DNA of 49,898 nucleotides from Flavobacteriales bacterium (lineage in GTDB: Bacteria > Bacteroidota > Bacteroidia > Flavobacteriales_D > Sanyastnellaceae), in the NCBI GenBank assembly GCA_016780385.1, contig JADHLY010000009.1, positions 1-49,898 on the forward strand. The letters are read 5' to 3'. A program made the position numbers and the translations under genes. This document shows positions 2 through 34,967 of the stretch, piece by piece. Position 1 is the first letter of the stretch, and each line of letters begins with the position of its first letter. Below the pieces are notes generated by a model, which was given only the letters and a program-made list of their open reading frames with translations, was not told where the DNA came from and searched no databases.

Positions 2-412
2 TTTGCCGACTTTGAAACCAACGGTGGCAGCGTCGTGGCCAATGACGTCAATGGCGGCTCCGTCTTCATCTATCCAGGCCTCGAACCAGCGGCCTTCCCC
101 GATGCCGATGGCCACGTGCTCATCGCTCAACTCACCACAGATGGAGAAGTCAGCCTCACGGTCAACCTCCAGTCTCGAACGGCAGACGGCGAGAACCCAC
201 AAATCCTGCAGCAGAGCTTGACCTTCCAGGAGGTCAGCGAATGCTTTGGTGACTTCAACAACGACGGCCTCATCGGCATCGGAGACCTGTTGATCCTGTT
301 GGGCGACTTCGGCTGTACGTCAGGTTGCTCCTATGACATGAACGGCGATGACGGCGTCACCACTTCTGACATGCTCGTCATGCTCGCCATCTTCGGAACG
401 AGCTGCGAATGA
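2..412 (+). CDS. 3' end of a secreted protein with a dockerin-like C-terminus (partial)
   Basis: The reading frame is open from the first bases of the window, so this is the C-terminal 136 residues of a longer protein. The GTG at 35 is internal, not a start. The first ~75 residues (NDVNGGSVFIYPG, then LIAQLTTDGEVS) resemble the N-terminal domain of the giant protein at 26637-34967, which has GQFTTDGELS at the same place. The last ~56 residues hold two EF-hand/dockerin-like motifs (DFNNDGLIGIGDLLILL and DMNGDDGVTTSDMLVML) framed by cysteines and end in SCE. Dockerin-type motifs bind calcium. No T9SS sorting domain follows. The stop overlaps the next start in ATGA, so translation of the two genes is probably coupled. 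Catalytic function, if any, lies outside the window. The frame is certain; the role is unknown. Confidence 0.85.
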   Translation, partial: FADFETNGGSVVANDVNGGSVFIYPGLEPAAFPDADGHVLIAQLTTDGEVSLTVNLQSRTADGENPQILQQSLTFQEVSECFGDFNNDGLIGIGDLLILLGDFGCTSGCSYDMNGDDGVTTSDMLVMLAIFGTSCE

Positions 413-2583
413 AGCACCTGACAGTACTGACTTTCCTGGTGGCCTTGGGTGGTGTGTGCACCGCTCAGGTGTCCCAAGGAGGGCATCCTTGGCAATGGGG
501 TGCGGCTGTGGACCTTCCGGATTTCCCCGAATTGAGCACGGAAGCCCTTGACCTGAATGCCCTGGCGGCAGAAGATGCCGTTACGGACCAATTCAAGGAA
601 GCCCCATGGCGTTTTGGGGTAGAGCGGGAGGTGGACCTCGGGCTTGAGGATGCCGGGGCTTGGACTTTCGAGAAGGGCCGCTGGATATGGCGGCTGGGCA
701 TCCATTGTCCGGGCGCCACGGGCATTGGCCTGCATTTGGGAGAATTCGACGTCCCAGAGGGTGCCGTCTTGTACGTCTGGAATGCGGAGCGCACCCGATT
801 CTTAGGTGGATTCACAGAGGCCAATGAAAAGGAATGGGGCAGCCTTGCGCTGGGCCTACTGGATGCGGACCGCGTTGTGATTGAGTACCAAGAGCCGATG
901 GCGGTTCACGGGGAAGGCGTCGTGCGCATCGCCCAAATCGTTCACGGCTACCGCGAACTGTTGCTTCACCCTGACAACCCTGCCCCAGCCTCGAGCATGG
1001 GACCCTTCGGAAACTCAGGAGCGTGCAACATCAACGTCAATTGCCCCATTGGTGCGGATTGGCAGGTGGCCAAAAAGTCGGTGGCGCTCATCACCAACGG
1101 TGGCTTTGCGGTCTGTTCGGGAGCCCTGGTCAACAACACGGCCGAAAACGGCACCCCTTACTTTCTGACGGCCAACCACTGCTTGGGCAACCCCAACACC
1201 TGGGTGTACTACTTCAACCACGAAAGCAGCAGCTGCTCGGGCTCCACAGGGCCCACGAATCAAAGTGTCTCCGGTGGCACTCTATTGGTCAACAGCGGTG
1301 CAAGCGATGTGGCCCTGATCCAATTGAGTTCGACCCCTCCGAGCAGTTACGATGTAGAGTATGCCGGTTGGGACGCCAGTGGTTCGACCCCCAATTCCGC
1401 TGTGGGCATTCACCACCCCAGTGGTGACGTCAAAAAGATCTGCTTCGAGAACAATGCCCCCTACACTTCGACAGCCGGCGGAGCCCAGGTCTGGTGGATC
1501 AACCAATGGGAGGACGGCGTGACGGAGCCGGGGTCTTCTGGTTCACCGTTGTTTGACCAGAACGAGCGCATCATCGGACAGCTGTACGGTGGTGCTGCTG
1601 CCTGCAGTGGATCCAACAACAACGGCGCCTATGATTACTACGGCCGCATGGATGTCAGCTGGGGCAATGGGGTCTCCACCTATCTGGACCCCCTCAATAC
1701 CGGCCAACTGACCATCGACAGCTACCCCACAAATTCCAATGCCAATGCCGGCTGTACGTTGCCCTCTGCCTGCAACTACGACCCTGACGCATTGGAGGAC
1801 GATGGCTCATGCTTGATCGATGACGCCTGCGGCGTATGCGGCGGCGATGGCACCAGCTGCACGGGGTGCACGGATGCCGCGGCGTGCAATTACGACGGTG
1901 CAGCGACCATAGACGACGGAAGCTGTCTGTATCCGCCGGCCGGAGAGCCGTGTGACTGCGATGCAGAGGGCGCATTGGACGCCGTACTTATGGCCAATGA
2001 GGCCTCGGTGATTTACAGCTTTGATGCTGCCGGAGCGCCCGAGACGCTGACGTTTTCGATGGATTGGACCAATACTGGCGGAGGCGGAAATTGGCCAGCC
2101 GACTTGGCATTGGCCATCACCGCACCGGACGGAAGCTGCGGCGCTGTTGGGGGGTACAACTCCTCCCCCGCAGGGTGCACCAGTATTGGCGACTACACCC
2201 TGTGGCCCAGCGATTGGCAGACCTCCAATGAAGGGGCATATTCGGCCACCTTGGACCTCTCCGACATGGCCTTGTCCGGCAACGGAACGTGGCAATTGTA
2301 CCTATTCAATGGATACAGCACCTCTTCAGGTGCGCAGTTCGACGCCAGTTGGAGCATCTCCGGATTGTGCAACGCCGATGGGGGCGGCGGTGGACCGGGA
2401 GGACCAAGCGACTGCCCGCCGGACTTGGATGGAGACGGCACCGTAACGGTGTCAGACGCCCTGATCCTGTTGGGTGAATTTGGCTGCCTGTCCAATTGCA
2501 ATGCCGACCTGACCGGCGACGACCAAGTGACCACTTCCGACATGTTGGTCTTCCTCGGCGCCTTTGGCGAACCCTGCGAGTGA
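409..2583 (+). CDS. Secreted trypsin-like serine endopeptidase with P-domain-like and dockerin-like C-terminal modules
   Basis: 724 residues. A signal peptide (MKHLTVLTFLVALGGVCTA) precedes a pro-region to about residue 200, then a chymotrypsin-fold protease of the lysyl-endopeptidase type. The catalytic triad is readable: His257 in TANHC, Asp300 in SDVALIQL and Ser377 in GSSGSP. Residues ~445-515 carry two cysteine-rich CTDxxACNY units like those repeated in the giant protein at 26637-34967. About 525-655 resembles a proprotein-convertase P/jelly-roll domain (NWPADLALAITAPDG, NGTWQLYLFNGY). The last 56 residues are a double dockerin-like module (DLDGDGTVTVSDALILL, DLTGDDQVTTSDMLVFL) ending in PCE, matching the end of the upstream gene. 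The protein is presumably exported and degrades extracellular protein. Family and triad are clear; Lys specificity is inferred only from family resemblance. The start overlaps the upstream stop. Confidence 0.93.
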   Translation: MKHLTVLTFLVALGGVCTAQVSQGGHPWQWGAAVDLPDFPELSTEALDLNALAAEDAVTDQFKEAPWRFGVEREVDLGLEDAGAWTFEKGRWIWRLGIHCPGATGIGLHLGEFDVPEGAVLYVWNAERTRFLGGFTEANEKEWGSLALGLLDADRVVIEYQEPMAVHGEGVVRIAQIVHGYRELLLHPDNPAPASSMGPFGNSGACNINVNCPIGADWQVAKKSVALITNGGFAVCSGALVNNTAENGTPYFLTANHCLGNPNTWVYYFNHESSSCSGSTGPTNQSVSGGTLLVNSGASDVALIQLSSTPPSSYDVEYAGWDASGSTPNSAVGIHHPSGDVKKICFENNAPYTSTAGGAQVWWINQWEDGVTEPGSSGSPLFDQNERIIGQLYGGAAACSGSNNNGAYDYYGRMDVSWGNGVSTYLDPLNTGQLTIDSYPTNSNANAGCTLPSACNYDPDALEDDGSCLIDDACGVCGGDGTSCTGCTDAAACNYDGAATIDDGSCLYPPAGEPCDCDAEGALDAVLMANEASVIYSFDAAGAPETLTFSMDWTNTGGGGNWPADLALAITAPDGSCGAVGGYNSSPAGCTSIGDYTLWPSDWQTSNEGAYSATLDLSDMALSGNGTWQLYLFNGYSTSSGAQFDASWSISGLCNADGGGGGPGGPSDCPPDLDGDGTVTVSDALILLGEFGCLSNCNADLTGDDQVTTSDMLVFLGAFGEPCE

Positions 2584-2784: not shown

Positions 2785-3264
2785 TCAATCGAGGTGGTCC
2801 GAGACCCAGCGGACGCCAGTCCAAATCAGCTCTGCGAATTGCCCATTGGTATCATACTGGCGTGCCTTGGTCAACCAATTGCCCGCCATGTCCTGCAAGT
2901 ACACCTGCTGGTCGTCCATGTCGGGTTGCTTCTCAACCGCCAGCCTGAAGGATTGGCCGGGGTACTCTCCGTCGGGGACCGTTACGTAGAGGTAGGGAAA
3001 GGTGAAGTCTTCCGCGATGTAGAAATCGTAGCCCAACGGGAGCACCCCAATGGTATCGGGGTCAAAATGCAAAATCGAAGGGGCGGAAGGCTGGACCTCA
3101 AAAGGGAGTCCATAGATGGCAAGCACCGCAATGACATCGCTTGCGCCAACACTGCCATCGTTGTTGGCATCGGGATTGAACGCCTGTGCCTGTCCCGACA
3201 TCGCCATGACGAGGGCCAAAGAGACGAGGGTTACACGGATGTAAAAGTGGGCCGCTGACGTCAT
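2785..3264 (-). CDS. Small exported protein with one N-terminal dockerin-like motif
   Basis: 159 residues. The N-terminus has a basic start and a hydrophobic stretch (RVTLVSLALVMAMSGQAQA), consistent with a signal peptide cleaved after AQA. Directly after it comes a single EF-hand/dockerin-like motif (NPDANNDGSVGASDVIAVLAIYG). The remaining ~100 residues match no family I can name; they have a beta-rich pattern (DFYIAEDFTFPYLYVTVPDGEYPG) and an aromatic C-terminus. The start is chosen because it gives a complete signal peptide. A later in-frame Met would truncate it. It shares the dockerin-like motif type with the two genes at 2-2583 but places it at the opposite end. It may be co-transcribed with tRNA-Leu 66 bases downstream. 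Function unknown. Confidence 0.8.
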   Translation of the reverse strand: MTSAAHFYIRVTLVSLALVMAMSGQAQAFNPDANNDGSVGASDVIAVLAIYGLPFEVQPSAPSILHFDPDTIGVLPLGYDFYIAEDFTFPYLYVTVPDGEYPGQSFRLAVEKQPDMDDQQVYLQDMAGNWLTKARQYDTNGQFAELIWTGVRWVSDHLD

Positions 3265-26636: not shown

Positions 26637-29600
26637 TCACTCTGAAACCAGGAGCTTCTTGACCACCACGTAGTCGGAACTGGACAGGCGCACCTGATAC
26701 ATTCCACTGGTCAACGAGTTGGCGTCGATGTCGAGCACGTACTGGACTTCCTCGCTGGCATTGCCATCGAACAACTCCTGGACGAACTGTCCGCTCATCG
26801 TGTACAGGTCGATGCGCAAGCGCATATTGTTGGTCACGATGAAGCCCAACGTGCTGTAGTCGTTGGTCGGGTTCGGCTGCAATCCTGTAATGCGGATGGG
26901 GTCCTTCAAGTTGCTCACCCCTGCTGTGATGTCGATGGGAGAATGGCTGTGGCCACCGCTCACCGTCACATTGTCGAGGTTGTTGAACTCACCCGTACCG
27001 AGGTCGGTGTAATCGAACTCAGTGGTGTTGCCGCAATCATCGGTGATCGTGTAGCTGTAGTCGATCTGCCATCCGAGGCAGCAGTCCATGTCGAAGAAGA
27101 TGTCACCACTGGAGGACAGGATGCCCTGGCTGACGCCGTCCACGACAAGCTCACCGCTGTAGAAGAACCATGCGCTACCGCCGTAGTTCTCGTTCTTGTT
27201 GTTGGCGCCCTCACCGATCTGGAGGCCGTAGTAGGCATTCAATGGCTGGTGCTGCAAGGCGAACTCAGATCCAGCGTAGGCACCTGTACCGGACATGGTA
27301 CCGTCTGCCATCACGTAGTAGATCCACTCCGTCCAGATTTCAATGCCGGGGAAGATGTCCGCGCAGTCCTTCTTGTAGTTGTGCATACCGGGCTCGGCAA
27401 GCCACTCATTCCAGTCGAATGCTCCTTCGTAGATGGCGTCAAAAATGAAACCGTCTCCGCTGGCATTGGCCACCTCCAGCACGATGTGCATCGCGCTGTC
27501 CGGTGCGATCTCAACAATGCTGCTGCCGCCTTCCACGATGGTGAAGCTCTCCGCTCCAGGGAAGTTGAACAAGCGCACCACTTCTGGATCTCGGTCATCA
27601 CAGGTCTCCCCGTTCTCTCCGGCCTCCACGTCAAGTGGCATGCAGAACTTGGCCACGTCAGCTGTGGGGAGGTATCCGCTCTCTACAGAAGAGAATGAGA
27701 GGGTCACCTCACTGTCACAGTTGTCAGCGTATGAGACATCGCAAGGGGCTGGAATCTCCGTAAAGTCGAAGATGTCACTCAGCCCATTCTGGTTGTCATC
27801 ACCGCAAGCGTACTCCACGATTTCGTCGTTGCTGATGCCACAAGTCAAAGTGAACTGAGGCGCCATTTCGTCGAGGACCGTGATGTCCTGCGTGGTGGTG
27901 ATGGTGTTCTCGTTCCCGCAGTCGTCTGTGGCCACGCTCGTCCACGTACGGGTGAAGGTGTAGCTTCCTTCGTCGGCTGCGTCACCGTCGCTGCAGGTCT
28001 GCACATTCGGGCTGTCCATGTAGGTCAACACGTTGGCCACATCGCTGTCGCAGTTGTCGGACGTCGTGACGGTGGGAATGCCCGTGGCCACATCGCTGCG
28101 GTCCGTCTCGCAGTCGCCATCGAGGTAAAGCGTCACGGGTGCGAGCGTCTCAATGGTTTGTGAGGGGTTGACATTGTCCTCCACCGTGATCAATTGATCC
28201 ACGGTAACCGAGGTGCTGTTGCCGCAGTCGTCCGTTGCCGTGAAGCTGAACGTACGGGTAAACACGTAGCTGCCGTTCACAGCATCGTCATCGCCACCAC
28301 AGGTGTACTCCGGCGCACTGTCGCTGAAGCTCGTCTCCACGGTCACGTCACTGTCACAAGCGTCGCTCGTGGTGTGGGTCGCGTATCCGAGGGTCCCCGT
28401 GGTCAAGTCCGTGCTGCAGTCTGCGTCCAATTGAACCAGCTGGTCTGCAGGCGCTTCAGCGCTGAGCAATGGCGCAGTGATGTCGTTGACCATGATGGTC
28501 TGGACATACTGATCGCTGCTGGCGTTGCCGCAATCGTCCGTGGCCGTTGCCGTCCATGTCCGCTCGAAGGTGTAGCTGCCTTCAGCACTGCCGTCGGCGT
28601 CGCTGCAGGTATACTCCAAAGCGCTGTCGGCGAACTCAATGGTGATGGAGACGTCGCTGTCGCAGTTGTCCGTGGCTGAGGCCGTGGCCTCACCCGCTGC
28701 ACCTGGCGCTGTGTCCACCGTGCAGTCAGCAGCCAAATCCGTGTTGTAATCGGCGGGGCCGCTGATGGTGACCATCGGGCTGATCTCATCGTTTACGGTG
28801 AAGGACTGGTCGTGCGTCAGGGTCGTCTCGTTGCCGCTGTCGTCAGTGGCCACTGCCGTCCAGCTGCGCGTGAAGGTGTACGAACCTTCGGCGAGGCCGT
28901 CGCCCGTGCAGGTGTAGATCGGTGCGGAATCCATGTGGAAGACCGCAATGGTCACGTCTCCGTCGCAGTTGTCCGTGGCTTCGGCCGTCACCAGATCGAG
29001 GCTGAGGTCCGCTTCGCATTCTGCATTGAGCGTCTCCACGCGGTCTGCAGGCCAAGTGACACTCAGGCTCGGCGCCAGAGCGTCCGTGACCGTGATCACG
29101 TGCTCGCAGTAGCTGTTCGACTTCCAATTCTCATTCTCACATGCGTCCTGCGAAGAGAACACGCGGGTGAACTGGTAGCTTCCGTTGTGCGCGGCGTCTT
29201 CATCTCCATAGATGTAGTCAGCACCGTCCGTGGCCGCAGCACCTGGGAGGTCCACAAACATGATGTCCTCGAAGGTCACCTCAGGGTTTGCGTCGCAGTT
29301 GTCGGTGACCGTAGCCATACCGGTCACGTCCGTGCTCACGTCCGTGGTGCAGTTCTCATCGAGGAACACCTCGATGTCCTCAGGACAGAAGTCGAACTCC
29401 GGTGCGAGCGTGTCCACAGTGGCCACGTATTGGATGGCCGATTCAGACTCGTTGCCGCTGTCGTCCGTCACGTACCAAATCCGCACGTAAGTACCGGGGC
29501 AAGATCCTGAGGTTAAGAAGGCCATGGAAATCTCATAGGTGAGCTGTCCGTCACCGTTGTCCGTGGCATGCAAAGGCAAGACGCTGACATCATAGGGGTC

Positions 29601-32600
29601 AGGCATGTCACCACACGTGATGGGCGCTGGATAGAGCTCATCGGGGTTGCCGTCAAACATGGGCGCCTCCTCGTCGGTAAAGGTCAAGACCTGCATGCAG
29701 GTCAATACCGTCTCGTTGCCGCAGTTGTCCGTGGCGGTCACCGTGAAGGTGCGCTGCAGTTCATAGTCGCCTTCGTTCTCATCGTCTGAGTCGGTATCCA
29801 AGGCCACGGCCACATCTTCATAGGTGTAAGCCACTGCAACGTCGCCATCACAGTTATCGCTGACCACCCATGTGGGCTCTCCGTTTGTAGCAATGCTCAG
29901 GTCACCATCGGCGAAGGGCACATTGGTGTACAGGATGTCATCGGGACATTGGATGCTGAGCATGGGCGCCTGCGTATCCTGGACCTCGATGGTCTGAGAC
30001 TGGCTGTGGATATTGCCCGCGCAGTCTGAGGTTTCCCACGTGCGGGTCAAGGTATACGTGTCCTCACATGCACCGTCCGTGCGGACTTCACCCATATAGG
30101 CGATCTCCGGACCGTTGTCGCAGTTGTCGAGCGCCGCCAATGTGCCGAGGTCAGCCACAGCGGGTACGGCATCGCATTCCACCGTCACGTCCGCAGGGAA
30201 AGCGGTGAATTCAGGCGCGGTCGTGTCCTCCACCGTGATGTACTGGATGTGCTCGGTGTAGTTGCCTGAGCAATCCGTCGTGCTGTAAGTACGCTTGATG
30301 GTGTACTCCTGATTACACGGCGTGGTCAGGATCAAATCACTGTACGACACCACAGCTTCGCTGTCACAGTTGTCCAGGGCTTCGGCGTGCATGCCATCGC
30401 CTGGCGTGAATTCGGGCACGGCGTAGAAGGTTCCGAGCTCGTGCTGGACGAAGCCGGTCAGGCTCTCATCGCTGCACTCCAATGTGTAGTCGGCTGAAGC
30501 CAACGTCCACTCGGCAGATGTGCGGTCGGTCACCACAACAATCTGCTGGAAAGTGGACATGTTGCCACACATGTCATAGGCCGTGTAGTCGACGATGAAG
30601 TCATCCCAGCATCCCGCAGAGAGTGGGGTGCATTCGGTCTCCACATGGCTGAGTTCACAGTTGTCCACGACGGTGATCAAACCCACGCTATTCAGGTACT
30701 CATAAGAGCAGTCCATCCAGAGATCGCACTCGAGGGTGTCGATGCCATCCGCCAAGAATGATGGCGCAATGGCGTCTTGAATGTCGATGCGCTGGTTGTC
30801 GGTCTCAGCCGTTGCGTTGCCGCAGCTGTCTGTGGCGATGGCCGTCCAGGTACGGATGATGCTGTAGCAACCCGTGCTCACACTGTCGACGACGACGTCG
30901 CTGTAGTCCAGACCGGTATCGGCCAAATCACAGTTGTCGGCGTAGGTGGCCTCAGCCACTCCAGTATTGGTGGGATCGAGGTCAACAAAACACAGTCCGT
31001 TGACATTCAACGTGACGTCTGAAGGCGCGGTCACCGTCACGTCAGGAGCAGTAGTGTCCTCGATGGTGATCGCCTGCACATGGTAGGTCTGGTTGCCAAA
31101 GCAATCCGTAGCCACCCAAGTACGGTTCAGCACGCGGCAGCTGCTCGCGGTGTATTCCGCGGTTGTCTCTCCCACAAGCTCCACACACACGTACACGGTA
31201 TTGCCATCGGCAAAACCTGAAGTGTTGGGATCGAATCCTGCAGCGCAACCGTATTCGCTGTCGTCGCAGTTGTCGGTGAAGAGCACAATCTCATCTTCGG
31301 CCAGGTTGTCGGCCAACCACTGCTCGCTATCGTCGCAAGTAATGGTGGTATCGGGAGCGCCCGATACGTAAACCGGCGCCGTCACGTCGTCGCGGGTCAC
31401 TGTTTGGACGATTTCCGTGGCCACGTTGCATTGGTCGTCAAAGGCGATGTAGTGGAACTCCACGTACTCTCCTTCGATGCAGTTGGTCGGCATGTCACAT
31501 GAAGGCTCGAGCGTGGCGATCACGTCACCCGCAAAGCCCATGGCATCCTCGCCGGCGATTGAACCGCTCCAGCTAAACCAACCTGAGAAGCCGTTGTCTT
31601 CGCAGTTGTGGTTGTTGGCTCCGTTTCCGAGCTGGAAACCGAAGTATTCGCTGGCTGGCTGGTGGCTGAAGTGAATCAACGTACCGAAGTCCCATGCACC
31701 TGGACCGCCTACCGCGTAGGAAGCCTCGTTGTTCAAGGTGTACACCGTCCAGAGGTCGGTGTTGGTGGCGCAACCGTAGTCGTTCTTGAATCCGCCAGCC
31801 CAGTCGGCACCGACAGTGCGGCCCTCGAAGAAGAGGTGAATCTCCAAACGCAGTGAGTTGTCCTCCGTGTCCATGACCATACCCTGCATCAGGGCCGTAC
31901 CATTTTCGAACTGCTGGAAGGAAACACCACCGTTGGCGATGTCCTCGATGAAGTAGTGGCTGCCGCCCATGTCTCCGTTCATGTCGTAGAACTGGAGCAA
32001 GGCGTCAGGGCCATTGTTGAAGTTGGGGTCATCACCTGCAGTGACGGCATTCCAGATTTGTGAAGTCCCTCCTCCTGAGCAGATCTGATTCCGACCATCG
32101 GTGCGGTTCTTGACCGTCACGACGTTGTCCAGCTCGAGGTCGTTACACGCGAAGCCGGTCGCTTCAGCAGCGGTGGCGGCCACGAGCTCGCTCTCGCACT
32201 CCACCGTATAGTCGGCGAGGTCTCCGTCAATCACGAGGTTGGCACAGCCCAAGCAAGGGTCGGCGCTCTCCAATGGAATGACTTTGCTGATGGCGTAGAG
32301 GTAGCTGTTGCCATTGAAACGGTAACCTCCGTTCTCGATAAGGAACGCTTCGCCCTCGGCATTGAGCAGGCGGGCTTGCCCCCCTTCTTCAGTGTAGCTA
32401 AACGCCTCGCCATAGTAGTTGTTGTAGACGTCTCCTTCGCTCAAGGTCTCGCACAATCCAGGGAAGACGTGACCGACAATAAGGTCACTCAATACATCCA
32501 CAGACAGGACATTGAGGTTGTAACCAGCCTCGCCCCAGGCATCATCCACAGGCAAGAAGATGGAACCGCAGTCAGAGCCCGCAACTGCAGGAACAACCAG

Positions 32601-34967
32601 GTCGCCATTGCCGGAAGCAATCAAACCCGCAATGAGGTCATCTGAAGGATTCTCGAGGGCCATGTTCAAGAGGGCCACTGAGCTGTCGATGGGCGCGCCG
32701 TCAGCGAGGGCGACTTCCACACCTCCACCTGTTACGGCTAAAGCTTCATCCTCATTACAGATGCCGTCATCGTCGAGGTCGTTCAGGCAACCACCGTCAC
32801 AGTCGACATATCCGACGCCGTAGAGATCCTCAGGATACTCACAGGTACCGGCATCCGTTGCAGCGGGGTTGTAGTTACATGCCGCTTCTTCCTGACAACC
32901 CACAATTTCAAAGGGGTCACATGTGCCGTCACCGTCGGTATCCTCGAGGCAATTTCCTGCACAATCGTACCCCTCATCGGCGTAGTCGCAGGTTCCAGCA
33001 TCGGTGGCTGCGGCGTCATAGTTACACGCGGTGTCGTCCTGGCAGCCGATCACTTCGTCCTCATCACATACGCCGTCACCGTCCGTATCGTTGTAGCAGT
33101 TGCCGTCACAATCGAGGTTCGTGATGCCTCCGTTTTCATCGACAGCATAAACGCACAGGCTGTTGTCGGAGTCCGTGAAGTCACCTGTATTACAAGCTTC
33201 TGGATCCGTGCAACCCGCGAGCTCTTCCTCATCGCACACACCGTCGCCATCTTCGTCGTTCAGGCAGCCTCCATCACAGTCGACGTAGTCAACACCATAG
33301 ATGTCGACGGGGTACTGACAAGAACCATCGTCATCCGTAGCGGGGGCGTCGTAGTTACAAGCCGCATCATCCGTACATCCGGGAACCTCTTCCTCGTCGC
33401 ACACGCCATCCTCATCGGCGTCATTCAAGCAGCTGCCATCACAGTCTACGATGTTGTCAGGGAAACCTGCGGGATAGGTACACGTGCTGTTGTCGGTATC
33501 CGTGAACACCCCTGCATTACACGCATTGGGGTCAGTACAACCTGCGGTTTCGTCTTCATCACAGATGTCATCACCATCGGCGTCATTGTCAATCACGACA
33601 CCATTCTCGCAGGTCTGGCAGATTCCGTCCAAGAACGTACAGGAACCATCGTCAATGATGGCCGCAGCATCGTAGTTACAGGCGGTCGCATCCGTACAAC
33701 CGGCGCAAGACGTGAACTCACAAGAGCCATCATCATCTGTCGCGAGCGGGCTGTAATTACAGGCACCTGAATCTGTACAACCCAAGACTTCATCCTCATC
33801 ACAAATGCCATCATCGTCAGCATCATTCAAACAATTGCCGGCGCAGTCCAAGTTGTCGGCGGCAGGAAATGTGCAAGAAGCATCGTCATCCGTGGCAGTG
33901 GGCTCGTAGTTACACGCCTCCTCGTTGGTGCAACCTGCAATTTCATCCTCATCACAAATGCCGTCTTGATCGGAATCGTTCAAGCAGTTGCCGGCACAGT
34001 CCAAGTTGTCGGCAGCAGGGAACGTACAAGAGGTGTCATCGTCCGTGGCCGTAGGCTCGTAGTTACAGGCTTCCTGGTCGGTACAACCGGGGATCTCGTC
34101 CTCGTCGCAGATGCCGTCCTCGTCAGCGTCATTCAGGCAAATGCCATCGCAGTCGACGTTGGCGCTGCCATAGAGGTCCAAGGGGAATTCGCAAGAGCCG
34201 TCATCTTCTGTGGCGAGCTCGTTGTAGTTACATGCCGCCGCGTCAGTACAACCCAATACCGGACCGCCCGCTCCGAAGTAGAAGGTGTCACGGAATTCCG
34301 TGGATCCATCGCCGTTAATGAACACCTGGCAGTACAGCTGGCCGCTCAATTCTCCGTCCGTCGTGAACTGACCGACGAGCACTTTGAGGTCGTCACCTGC
34401 GATGCCGTTTGAGTCTCCGTTCAAAGCGTACCAAGCTCCACCGATGGCATCGTCAATGGCGATGTTGCCACCGGGCAGTCCGCCACCTGGGTCAAAGTTG
34501 GTCGACCAAGGGTTATCGGTAGACTGAACCGTCGCAATGGCGGCTTCACCTGCCGCAGCGTTGGGAACGCCTTCGAGGCCAATCGTTACCCAGCTGTCGT
34601 ATGGAAGGTCCGGGTACACCGGAAACAGCAAAGAATTGATGCCGTTTGGCGTGGCCGCTCCCAATACAGCATGATAGAAACTCGTGGTGGTCTCGATCAA
34701 GGTGGGGTTGGTGATGTCACCTGAAACCGAAGACATGAAGTCATCGGCGTTGTTCATGGTGACGTACAGTCGGGTGCTGCTGAATCCCGTCAAGTCAGTG
34801 ACGCCGAGCGCACCGACCAAAATGCCGATGTCTTCATTGACGACAGTAACCTCAAGGGCATAGCCTTCGGGCGCTGGAGCGGAATTGACAGCAACTTGTT
34901 GCTGGGAAAAGACGGTGGTGAGGCCGCAAAAAAGGGCTACAACCAGGTTGATGGTCTTGGACATCAT
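26637..34967 (-). CDS. Giant secreted repeat protein (CTDxxACNY/TSP3-like, FAS1-like, ~13 HYR modules, T9SS type A sorting domain)
   Basis: 2776 residues. Signal peptide 1-22 (MMSKTINLVVALFCGLTTVFS). Residues ~25-236 form an N-terminal beta domain also seen in the gene at window start. About 237-743 contain ten ~50-residue units combining GCTDxxACNY with DxDxDGICDEDE calcium-binding strings (thrombospondin type 3-like). About 745-895 is FAS1-like (IFLPVDDAWGE, LLNAEGEAFL). A module of unknown type lies at ~955-1160 and recurs at ~2465-2630. Between them sit about 13 HYR-like beta modules (ending in DTTAP or similar, with ATDNCD). The last ~85 residues are a T9SS type A sorting domain (LQPNPTNDYSTLGF, YTMSGQFVQELF, SGMYQVRLSSSDYVVVKKLLVSE). 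It probably forms a long calcium-stiffened surface or matrix adhesin; no enzymatic domain is visible. No frameshift seen. Confidence 0.93.
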   Translation of the reverse strand: MMSKTINLVVALFCGLTTVFSQQQVAVNSAPAPEGYALEVTVVNEDIGILVGALGVTDLTGFSSTRLYVTMNNADDFMSSVSGDITNPTLIETTTSFYHAVLGAATPNGINSLLFPVYPDLPYDSWVTIGLEGVPNAAAGEAAIATVQSTDNPWSTNFDPGGGLPGGNIAIDDAIGGAWYALNGDSNGIAGDDLKVLVGQFTTDGELSGQLYCQVFINGDGSTEFRDTFYFGAGGPVLGCTDAAACNYNELATEDDGSCEFPLDLYGSANVDCDGICLNDADEDGICDEDEIPGCTDQEACNYEPTATDDDTSCTFPAADNLDCAGNCLNDSDQDGICDEDEIAGCTNEEACNYEPTATDDDASCTFPAADNLDCAGNCLNDADDDGICDEDEVLGCTDSGACNYSPLATDDDGSCEFTSCAGCTDATACNYDAAAIIDDGSCTFLDGICQTCENGVVIDNDADGDDICDEDETAGCTDPNACNAGVFTDTDNSTCTYPAGFPDNIVDCDGSCLNDADEDGVCDEEEVPGCTDDAACNYDAPATDDDGSCQYPVDIYGVDYVDCDGGCLNDEDGDGVCDEEELAGCTDPEACNTGDFTDSDNSLCVYAVDENGGITNLDCDGNCYNDTDGDGVCDEDEVIGCQDDTACNYDAAATDAGTCDYADEGYDCAGNCLEDTDGDGTCDPFEIVGCQEEAACNYNPAATDAGTCEYPEDLYGVGYVDCDGGCLNDLDDDGICNEDEALAVTGGGVEVALADGAPIDSSVALLNMALENPSDDLIAGLIASGNGDLVVPAVAGSDCGSIFLPVDDAWGEAGYNLNVLSVDVLSDLIVGHVFPGLCETLSEGDVYNNYYGEAFSYTEEGGQARLLNAEGEAFLIENGGYRFNGNSYLYAISKVIPLESADPCLGCANLVIDGDLADYTVECESELVAATAAEATGFACNDLELDNVVTVKNRTDGRNQICSGGGTSQIWNAVTAGDDPNFNNGPDALLQFYDMNGDMGGSHYFIEDIANGGVSFQQFENGTALMQGMVMDTEDNSLRLEIHLFFEGRTVGADWAGGFKNDYGCATNTDLWTVYTLNNEASYAVGGPGAWDFGTLIHFSHQPASEYFGFQLGNGANNHNCEDNGFSGWFSWSGSIAGEDAMGFAGDVIATLEPSCDMPTNCIEGEYVEFHYIAFDDQCNVATEIVQTVTRDDVTAPVYVSGAPDTTITCDDSEQWLADNLAEDEIVLFTDNCDDSEYGCAAGFDPNTSGFADGNTVYVCVELVGETTAEYTASSCRVLNRTWVATDCFGNQTYHVQAITIEDTTAPDVTVTAPSDVTLNVNGLCFVDLDPTNTGVAEATYADNCDLADTGLDYSDVVVDSVSTGCYSIIRTWTAIATDSCGNATAETDNQRIDIQDAIAPSFLADGIDTLECDLWMDCSYEYLNSVGLITVVDNCELSHVETECTPLSAGCWDDFIVDYTAYDMCGNMSTFQQIVVVTDRTSAEWTLASADYTLECSDESLTGFVQHELGTFYAVPEFTPGDGMHAEALDNCDSEAVVSYSDLILTTPCNQEYTIKRTYSTTDCSGNYTEHIQYITVEDTTAPEFTAFPADVTVECDAVPAVADLGTLAALDNCDNGPEIAYMGEVRTDGACEDTYTLTRTWETSDCAGNIHSQSQTIEVQDTQAPMLSIQCPDDILYTNVPFADGDLSIATNGEPTWVVSDNCDGDVAVAYTYEDVAVALDTDSDDENEGDYELQRTFTVTATDNCGNETVLTCMQVLTFTDEEAPMFDGNPDELYPAPITCGDMPDPYDVSVLPLHATDNGDGQLTYEISMAFLTSGSCPGTYVRIWYVTDDSGNESESAIQYVATVDTLAPEFDFCPEDIEVFLDENCTTDVSTDVTGMATVTDNCDANPEVTFEDIMFVDLPGAAATDGADYIYGDEDAAHNGSYQFTRVFSSQDACENENWKSNSYCEHVITVTDALAPSLSVTWPADRVETLNAECEADLSLDLVTAEATDNCDGDVTIAVFHMDSAPIYTCTGDGLAEGSYTFTRSWTAVATDDSGNETTLTHDQSFTVNDEISPMVTISGPADYNTDLAADCTVDTAPGAAGEATASATDNCDSDVSITIEFADSALEYTCSDADGSAEGSYTFERTWTATATDDCGNASSDQYVQTIMVNDITAPLLSAEAPADQLVQLDADCSTDLTTGTLGYATHTTSDACDSDVTVETSFSDSAPEYTCGGDDDAVNGSYVFTRTFSFTATDDCGNSTSVTVDQLITVEDNVNPSQTIETLAPVTLYLDGDCETDRSDVATGIPTVTTSDNCDSDVANVLTYMDSPNVQTCSDGDAADEGSYTFTRTWTSVATDDCGNENTITTTQDITVLDEMAPQFTLTCGISNDEIVEYACGDDNQNGLSDIFDFTEIPAPCDVSYADNCDSEVTLSFSSVESGYLPTADVAKFCMPLDVEAGENGETCDDRDPEVVRLFNFPGAESFTIVEGGSSIVEIAPDSAMHIVLEVANASGDGFIFDAIYEGAFDWNEWLAEPGMHNYKKDCADIFPGIEIWTEWIYYVMADGTMSGTGAYAGSEFALQHQPLNAYYGLQIGEGANNKNENYGGSAWFFYSGELVVDGVSQGILSSSGDIFFDMDCCLGWQIDYSYTITDDCGNTTEFDYTDLGTGEFNNLDNVTVSGGHSHSPIDITAGVSNLKDPIRITGLQPNPTNDYSTLGFIVTNNMRLRIDLYTMSGQFVQELFDGNASEEVQYVLDIDANSLTSGMYQVRLSSSDYVVVKKLLVSE
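27670..31398 (-). repeat. Array of about 13 HYR-like module repeats
   Basis: About 13 consecutive protein modules of 75-110 residues, each opening with [DE]D-x2-AP and carrying a (A/S)TDNCD-type loop, W/F-rich strand (YTFTRTWTA) and DDCGNxT turn. They correspond to residues ~1190-2435. Units 9-12 (27877-29092) are much more alike than the rest. HYR domains are immunoglobulin-like and common in adhesive surface proteins. Confidence 0.85.
32736..34256 (-). repeat. Ten tandem CTDxxACNY/TSP3-like coding repeats
   Basis: Ten units of about 150 bases encode GC[TQ][DNE]xxACNY (or ACN in two), a T(D)DDGSC segment and DxDGICDEDE (variants DGVCDEE, DGTCDPF). Four to six cysteines per unit and a dense Asp pattern fit calcium and disulfide stabilisation. 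The units are diverged enough not to be a recent slip expansion. Confidence 0.9.

Follow-up and report, generated by a model that had tools for sequence, protein, structure and literature searches.

What is the role of a C-terminal module that ends two adjacent secreted proteins at the place where a T9SS sorting domain would normally sit? The question is raised by the first two genes of the window, by which we mean the whole stretch of 49,898 nt analyzed here from a Flavobacteriales bacterium of the Sanyastnellaceae (assembly GCA_016780385.1, contig JADHLY010000009.1, positions 1-49,898, forward strand). The window's own genome comprises 1.86 Mb and is 84% complete. The relevant features are as follows.

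2-412, forward strand: 3′ portion of a gene for a secreted protein (5′ end beyond the window), from the ORF list; the C-terminal 57 residues are the module
239-409, forward strand: double dockerin module 1, with halves a (239-316) and b (326-409) on either side of a spacer (317-325), from sequence, own-genome search and alignment A1
409-2583, forward strand: trypsin-like secreted protease of 724 residues, from the ORF list; N-terminus like a signal peptide
2410-2580, forward strand: double dockerin module 2, with halves a (2410-2487) and b (2497-2580) on either side of a spacer (2488-2496), matched by NF041540 (dockerin_GC) with 32.8 bits
2785-3264, reverse strand: secreted protein of 159 residues with one half-unit, NPDANNDGSVGASDVIAVLAIYG, right behind the signal peptide, from the ORF list; weak match in the own-genome search (E 0.14)
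26637-34967, reverse strand: secreted protein of 2776 residues with HYR-like repeats and a T9SS type A tail at 26646-26876 (Por_Secre_tail 32.4 bits, TIGR04183 30.5 bits, both above cut-off)

Module 1 reads ECFGDFNNDGLIGIGDLLILLGDFGC-TSG-CSYDMNGDDGVTTSDMLVMLAIFGTSCE-stop and module 2 reads DCPPDLDGDGTVTVSDALILLGEFGC-LSN-CNADLTGDDQVTTSDMLVFLGAFGEPCE-stop. Both comprise 57 residues directly before the stop codon, are 56-57% identical to each other and repeat in each half the pattern C-x2-D-x-[DNT]-x-D-x6-D-x4-L-x2-FG. Four Cys residues are present per module, located before loop 1, after half 1 (GC), before loop 2 and one residue from the end. A preliminary description of this DNA had reported that both proteins end in a Cys-framed double dockerin-like module and that neither has a T9SS sorting domain. 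The sequence and a search of the window's genome agree with the former, and no T9SS tail was matched in either protein in Pfam or NCBIfam (TIGR04183/PF18962).

The two genes overlap by ATGA. Protease residues 236-390 correspond to Pfam Trypsin_2 (E 5e-10), and the partial protein had no other Pfam or NCBIfam match above cut-off outside its module; the 159-residue protein had no family match in these databases. The 2776-residue protein shows the contrasting tail type, T9SS-A, within the same window. It contains repeats like GCTDATACNYDP...DDGSC plus many HYR-like repeats, and the same Cys-rich repeats are found ahead of the dockerin tail in numerous carriers of the module.

Identity and fold of the module

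The protease module scored above the curated cut-off (29 bits) of NCBIfam NF041540, "GC-type dockerin", and profile positions 1-67 aligned to residues 669-723 of 724, i.e., over the full length and at the C-terminus. Module 1 scored 15.1 bits, below this cut-off, and from its sequence (the identity given above and a common alignment, A1) is to be classed only as a close homologue of an NF041540 member. The domain family has already been named by NCBIfam, and its model misses most copies in the window's genome, where only 3 modules exceed the cut-off. Pfam Dockerin_1 (PF00404) gave 13.9 and 13.7 bits, below its gathering score of 22.9.

An AlphaFold2 model of the protease module, based on an alignment of 48 sequences, had a mean pLDDT of 94.6. 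Its best solved match was the type II dockerin 2y3n_B, which was ranked first by Foldseek (TM 0.87) and aligned with a Z score of 10.4 and an rmsd of 1.4 over 57 residues. The same structure was detected by a sequence profile search of the PDB (E 6e-11) ahead of calmodulins (best 3e-7). Therefore, the module folds as a dockerin and not as a generic EF-hand pair, which confirms the dockerin-like assignment first made by eye of the sequence. A Cys lies at or near the end of the module, which has neither a hydrophobic helix nor a basic tail and thereby differs from PEP-CTERM/exosortase and sortase anchors. It is also distinct from T9SS sorting domains, given the lack of TIGR04183 and PF18962 matches and the existence of module-rich genomes without SprA.

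Cys occurrence was compared across approximately 125 double modules, parsed from sequences of two phyla. The terminal Cys (first and last) were either both present or both absent; 8 modules had neither, and 7 apparent exceptions were read as parsing errors from the examples printed. The middle Cys pair was present or absent independently of the first/last pair. Because of this covariation on the one hand and independence on the other, the pattern fits disulfides that would link first to last and middle to middle Cys. It is known that dockerin termini are clasped intramolecularly by non-covalent contacts (PMC5934362). In the mechanism we propose, the tag would fold at the C-terminus into a compact dockerin with two EF-hand-type calcium loops and one helix each, a disulfide between first and last Cys would clasp the module ends, and the turn of many copies would hold a second disulfide (CxxxC). 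Both calcium binding and the disulfides are predicted features of this model.

Placement and exchange with T9SS tails

A search of the window's genome with module 1 yielded 43 matches (best paralogue E 5e-17), well beyond what chance would give. Of 41 unit-bearing ORFs, 38 had the unit ending 0-2 residues before the stop, with a Cys there; 20 of these C-terminal carriers had a double module and 18 a single half. The three remaining ORFs were two whose half-unit directly follows the signal peptide and one of 46 residues without Cys. Thus, the expectation that the module is always C-terminal held for nearly all ORFs of this genome and failed for a few copies that are N-terminal or internal. Such N-terminal half-units and internal modules would argue against a strict sorting signal, and would be compatible with a docking module.

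The reversed placement was seen in the window protein at 2785-3264 (reverse strand) and at L024:2075-2749. The 46-residue ORF (L028, ~2243-2380, on contig C49 of genome G000) has no signal peptide and resembles a double dockerin that has degenerated (MTLSDLLQLLANFMQPVTKANAMYDLNGDGMITTSDLILLLSQLL); it is flanked by two tRNA-like stretches.

By a simple hydrophobicity rule, 25 of 29 carriers with complete 5′ ends appeared to have a signal peptide. Carriers were functionally unrelated and included trypsin-like and metalloproteases, GH81, amylase, nucleases, lysyl oxidase, plastocyanin and lamin-tail proteins. Approximately 49 ORFs of the same genome had T9SS type A tail matches, some of them below cut-off. 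Both tails occurred together in none of the 41 unit-bearing proteins, and the sole ORF on both lists represented a sub-threshold internal match. The mutual exclusion of module and T9SS domains, which had been proposed as a check, is therefore observed in the window's genome.

The relationship between the two tails is best seen in protein families that contain both. Homologues of the protease body across the order carried a module tail in 20 cases, a T9SS-A tail in 41 and both in none, and a protease paralogue in the window's genome itself ends in a T9SS tail. In the protease tree, module rows grouped in a single clade (100/99), which also contained a few truncated rows and lay within the T9SS-A rows. 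A second family is represented by adjacent genes on contig C41. Up to the tail, these tandem paralogues share 68% identity over 421 residues; beyond that point they diverge, one carrying the module and the other a T9SS tail. Mixed tandem pairs recur in several genera among relatives, across which this family has 18-19 module rows and 37 T9SS-A rows. TIGR04183 confirmed the T9SS labels at E≤0.01 for 36 of 37 rows here and 40 of 41 in the protease family.

For the C41 family, a single clade of module rows was rejected (AU p 2e-97, or 1e-85 without the longest module branch). The tree, obtained by quick searches and containing long branches, had three tail changes, or two once one long-branched row was dropped, suggesting that the tail changed at least twice and probably three times. 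The likely polarity, with the T9SS tail first, rests on the outer rows, all of which are T9SS-tailed. A third pair, in the NCBIfam choice-of-anchor B family, has one module-tailed and one T9SS-tailed member.

As judged from these alignments and trees, the exchanges show that module and T9SS tail are alternatives for one and the same position and that the module has repeatedly replaced the tail. The idea that it is an alternative sorting or anchoring signal gains support: the module sits at the T9SS tail position, and it excludes and replaces T9SS tails. It looks like a second address label beside the T9SS tail. Tail exchange was not described in the openly licensed papers that we searched for GC-type dockerins, dockerins together with T9SS, and Flavobacteriales dockerins. 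Nor did we find in them the Cys-pair pattern, the single-half form or the lineage-specific uniformity presented below.

Distribution and the putative receptor

Among 249 genomes of the order, the module was detected (E≤1e-5) in 84 of 91 genomes of the window's family versus 9 of 158 outside it. Most module-bearing genomes of the family had at least about 26 scored places each. Module-poor genera and one other family have mainly kept one protein, with a single half-unit tail. A conserved Flavobacteriales protein with a YRGAF...NWLSDWSYSQVLGAT motif has such a tail and is often the sole carrier in module-poor genomes (L129, L130, L134-L136, L138-L140, L146, L150). Low-copy relatives were also considered as pointers to a dedicated partner gene next door; instead, they show one conserved YRGAF-type half-unit protein.

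A scan of species genomes with a four-row module alignment detected the module in uncultured Flavobacteriales, in Phycisphaerales and in other Planctomycetota, mostly 0-2 residues before the stop; a few copies were internal. Module-rich Planctomycetota had 10 to 126 NF041540 matches per genome. Of the 27 Flavobacteriales genomes with the module that were examined, 26 had SprA/Sov, compared with 0 of 23 module-rich Planctomycetota genomes, with one genome on each side placed by its module type and SprA result. The suggestion that the module is restricted to genomes with porU/sov is contradicted by these Planctomycetota. PorU is present in the window's genome. SprA was also found in both module-poor relatives tested (G062 and G104), and therefore its co-occurrence with the module carries little weight. 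A pattern search for PEP-CTERM tails as the Planctomycetota counterpart gave only spurious antisense ORFs.

These data bear on the possibility that the module is a new T9SS sorting domain, recognized directly by the translocon and sortase of the T9SS as are tails of types A, B and C. The occurrence of SprA in module-bearing Flavobacteriales, PorU in the window's genome and the replacement of T9SS-A tails in place are consistent with such a role. However, the same module is found at the same place in Planctomycetota genomes that have no SprA, and SprA is found in relatives that are poor in modules. In addition, T9SS tails have an Ig-like beta fold, whereas the module has the alpha-helical fold of a dockerin. 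We consider this explanation very unlikely.

A dockerin fold naturally directs attention to cohesins. None had been visible in the preliminary description, and Pfam cohesin (PF00963), a profile that may miss a divergent cohesin, gave no match at E≤1 in the window's genome (84% complete). Pfam cohesin was also missing from most module-rich genomes, including G282 with its 126 modules. The initial impression thus stood for the window's genome, but isolated cohesin-like domains do occur in a minority of relatives. One such domain, above the Pfam cut-off, lies within a protein that itself ends in a double module (L222, contig C45 of G049), with another module gene approximately 5 kb away. On contig C215 of G264 (Phycisphaeraceae; L221, L230, L232), three neighboring ORFs have cohesin-like matches and one ends in a dockerin module, making this a possible scaffold locus. 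The 2776-residue window protein was considered as a scaffold and rejected, as it has HYR-like repeats and a T9SS tail and no cohesin match at E≤1.

A classical cohesin-dockerin assembly of the planctosome type would be one particular form of docking, with a cohesin as the receptor; tagged enzymes would be held by a scaffoldin with cohesins that diverge too far to be matched by Pfam. The closeness of the fold to type II dockerins, the cohesin-like domains of some relatives and the planctosome hypothesized in Nemodlikiaceae, which are freshwater Planctomycetes (PMC6461901), favor it, but the absence of Pfam cohesins from the window's genome and most module-rich ones, and from the giant repeat protein of the window, makes it unlikely in our assessment.

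Evidence for a common partner came mainly from one Phycisphaeraceae genome (G282, 3.0 Mb; L336-L355), which had the 126 NF041540 matches noted above. Its modules are highly uniform (LTIFDFLAFQN) on unrelated proteins. Nineteen of them, taken from the top of the match list, averaged 78% identity to one another (MAFFT), while 1 of 153 pairs of protein bodies was related; identity to modules of other genomes was 32-34%. Identical residues shared a codon in 66% of cases, a modest excess over the 58% expected from local codon usage, and uniformity is therefore not explained mainly by recent copying of DNA. Uniformity on unrelated bodies, together with divergence from other genomes, points to one common partner or recognition surface per lineage. 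Modules of the window's genome are approximately 47% identical to one another, and therefore the uniformity argument rests mainly on Planctomycetota.

Uniformity also helps to assess whether the module is a passive C-terminal cap, i.e., a knob stabilized by calcium and disulfides that shields secreted proteins from exoproteases and has no partner. A cap would account for the very C-terminal position, the confident fold, the covariation of terminal Cys, the sufficiency of single halves in 18 carriers and the lack of a common function among carriers. Yet it does not need uniformity of the kind seen for the 19 modules on unrelated proteins, which differ from those of other lineages, and it leaves unexplained the exact address-tail position in tandem paralogues. 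We find a passive cap decidedly unlikely.

On balance, the module is rather probably a general C-terminal docking or address tag, cohesin-like in its logic, with a putative receptor. The carrier would be exported via Sec by means of its N-terminal signal peptide, and one face of the folded dockerin would dock, non-covalently and in a calcium-dependent manner, onto a receptor common to all tagged proteins of a species. We infer that this receptor, and with it the final location of module proteins, most likely lies at the cell surface or within an extracellular scaffold. Having no T9SS tail, carriers could equally stay in the periplasm, and such retention remains an alternative. The tag would do the job of the T9SS C-terminal domain for its own cargo, as an alternative to T9SS and not a branch of it, and a duplicated gene could leave one product on T9SS and direct the other to the dockerin receptor. 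A stronger version, rather improbable at present and offered tentatively, is a new T9SS-independent targeting system of marine Flavobacteriales and Planctomycetota, with a disulfide-clasped dockerin signal and a dedicated non-cohesin receptor, that competes with T9SS for cargo families in Flavobacteriales.

If the docking tag reading is correct, large fractions of the secretomes of uncultured marine bacteria bear an address label that is mostly missed by current annotation, and dockerins would be a general envelope-sorting device beyond their part in the cellulosome. Tandem paralogues with the tail as their main difference would represent a natural experiment, with one body and two addresses in many species, whose destination is directly testable.

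Comparison with known systems

The closest described family is the GC-type dockerin NF041540, which the module resembles in the score of the protease copy, in C-terminal placement and in the abundance of Planctomycetota members. The name "domain-anchored protein" suggests that NCBI curators already suspected anchoring. In contrast to the tails described here, the NF041540 model does not represent single halves. The cellulosomal type II dockerin of Bacteroides cellulosolvens (2y3n_B) has the same fold with two calcium-loop/helix repeats, and the clasped module ends recall the intramolecular dockerin clasp (PMC5934362), although in the module the clasp would be a disulfide. Unlike cellulosomal dockerins, however, the module is found on carriers that are not cellulosomal enzymes, has no matching cohesin in the genome and commonly occurs as a half.

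The planctosome hypothesis for Nemodlikiaceae likewise involves secreted peptidases with dockerins of a non-cellulosomal kind, includes lamin-tail and HYR domains as components and requires cohesins on an LTD anchor plus an adaptor (PMC6461901). Here, neither a cohesin-LTD anchor nor an adaptor was detected, and dozens of secreted proteins with no relationship to one another carry the module. With the T9SS type A domain (TIGR04183/Por_Secre_tail), the module shares the extreme C-terminal position, the occurrence on many unrelated secreted proteins and interchangeability within families. The two are nevertheless unrelated in sequence and fold, and whereas the type A domain is tied to T9SS, the module is also used by Planctomycetota that lack this system.
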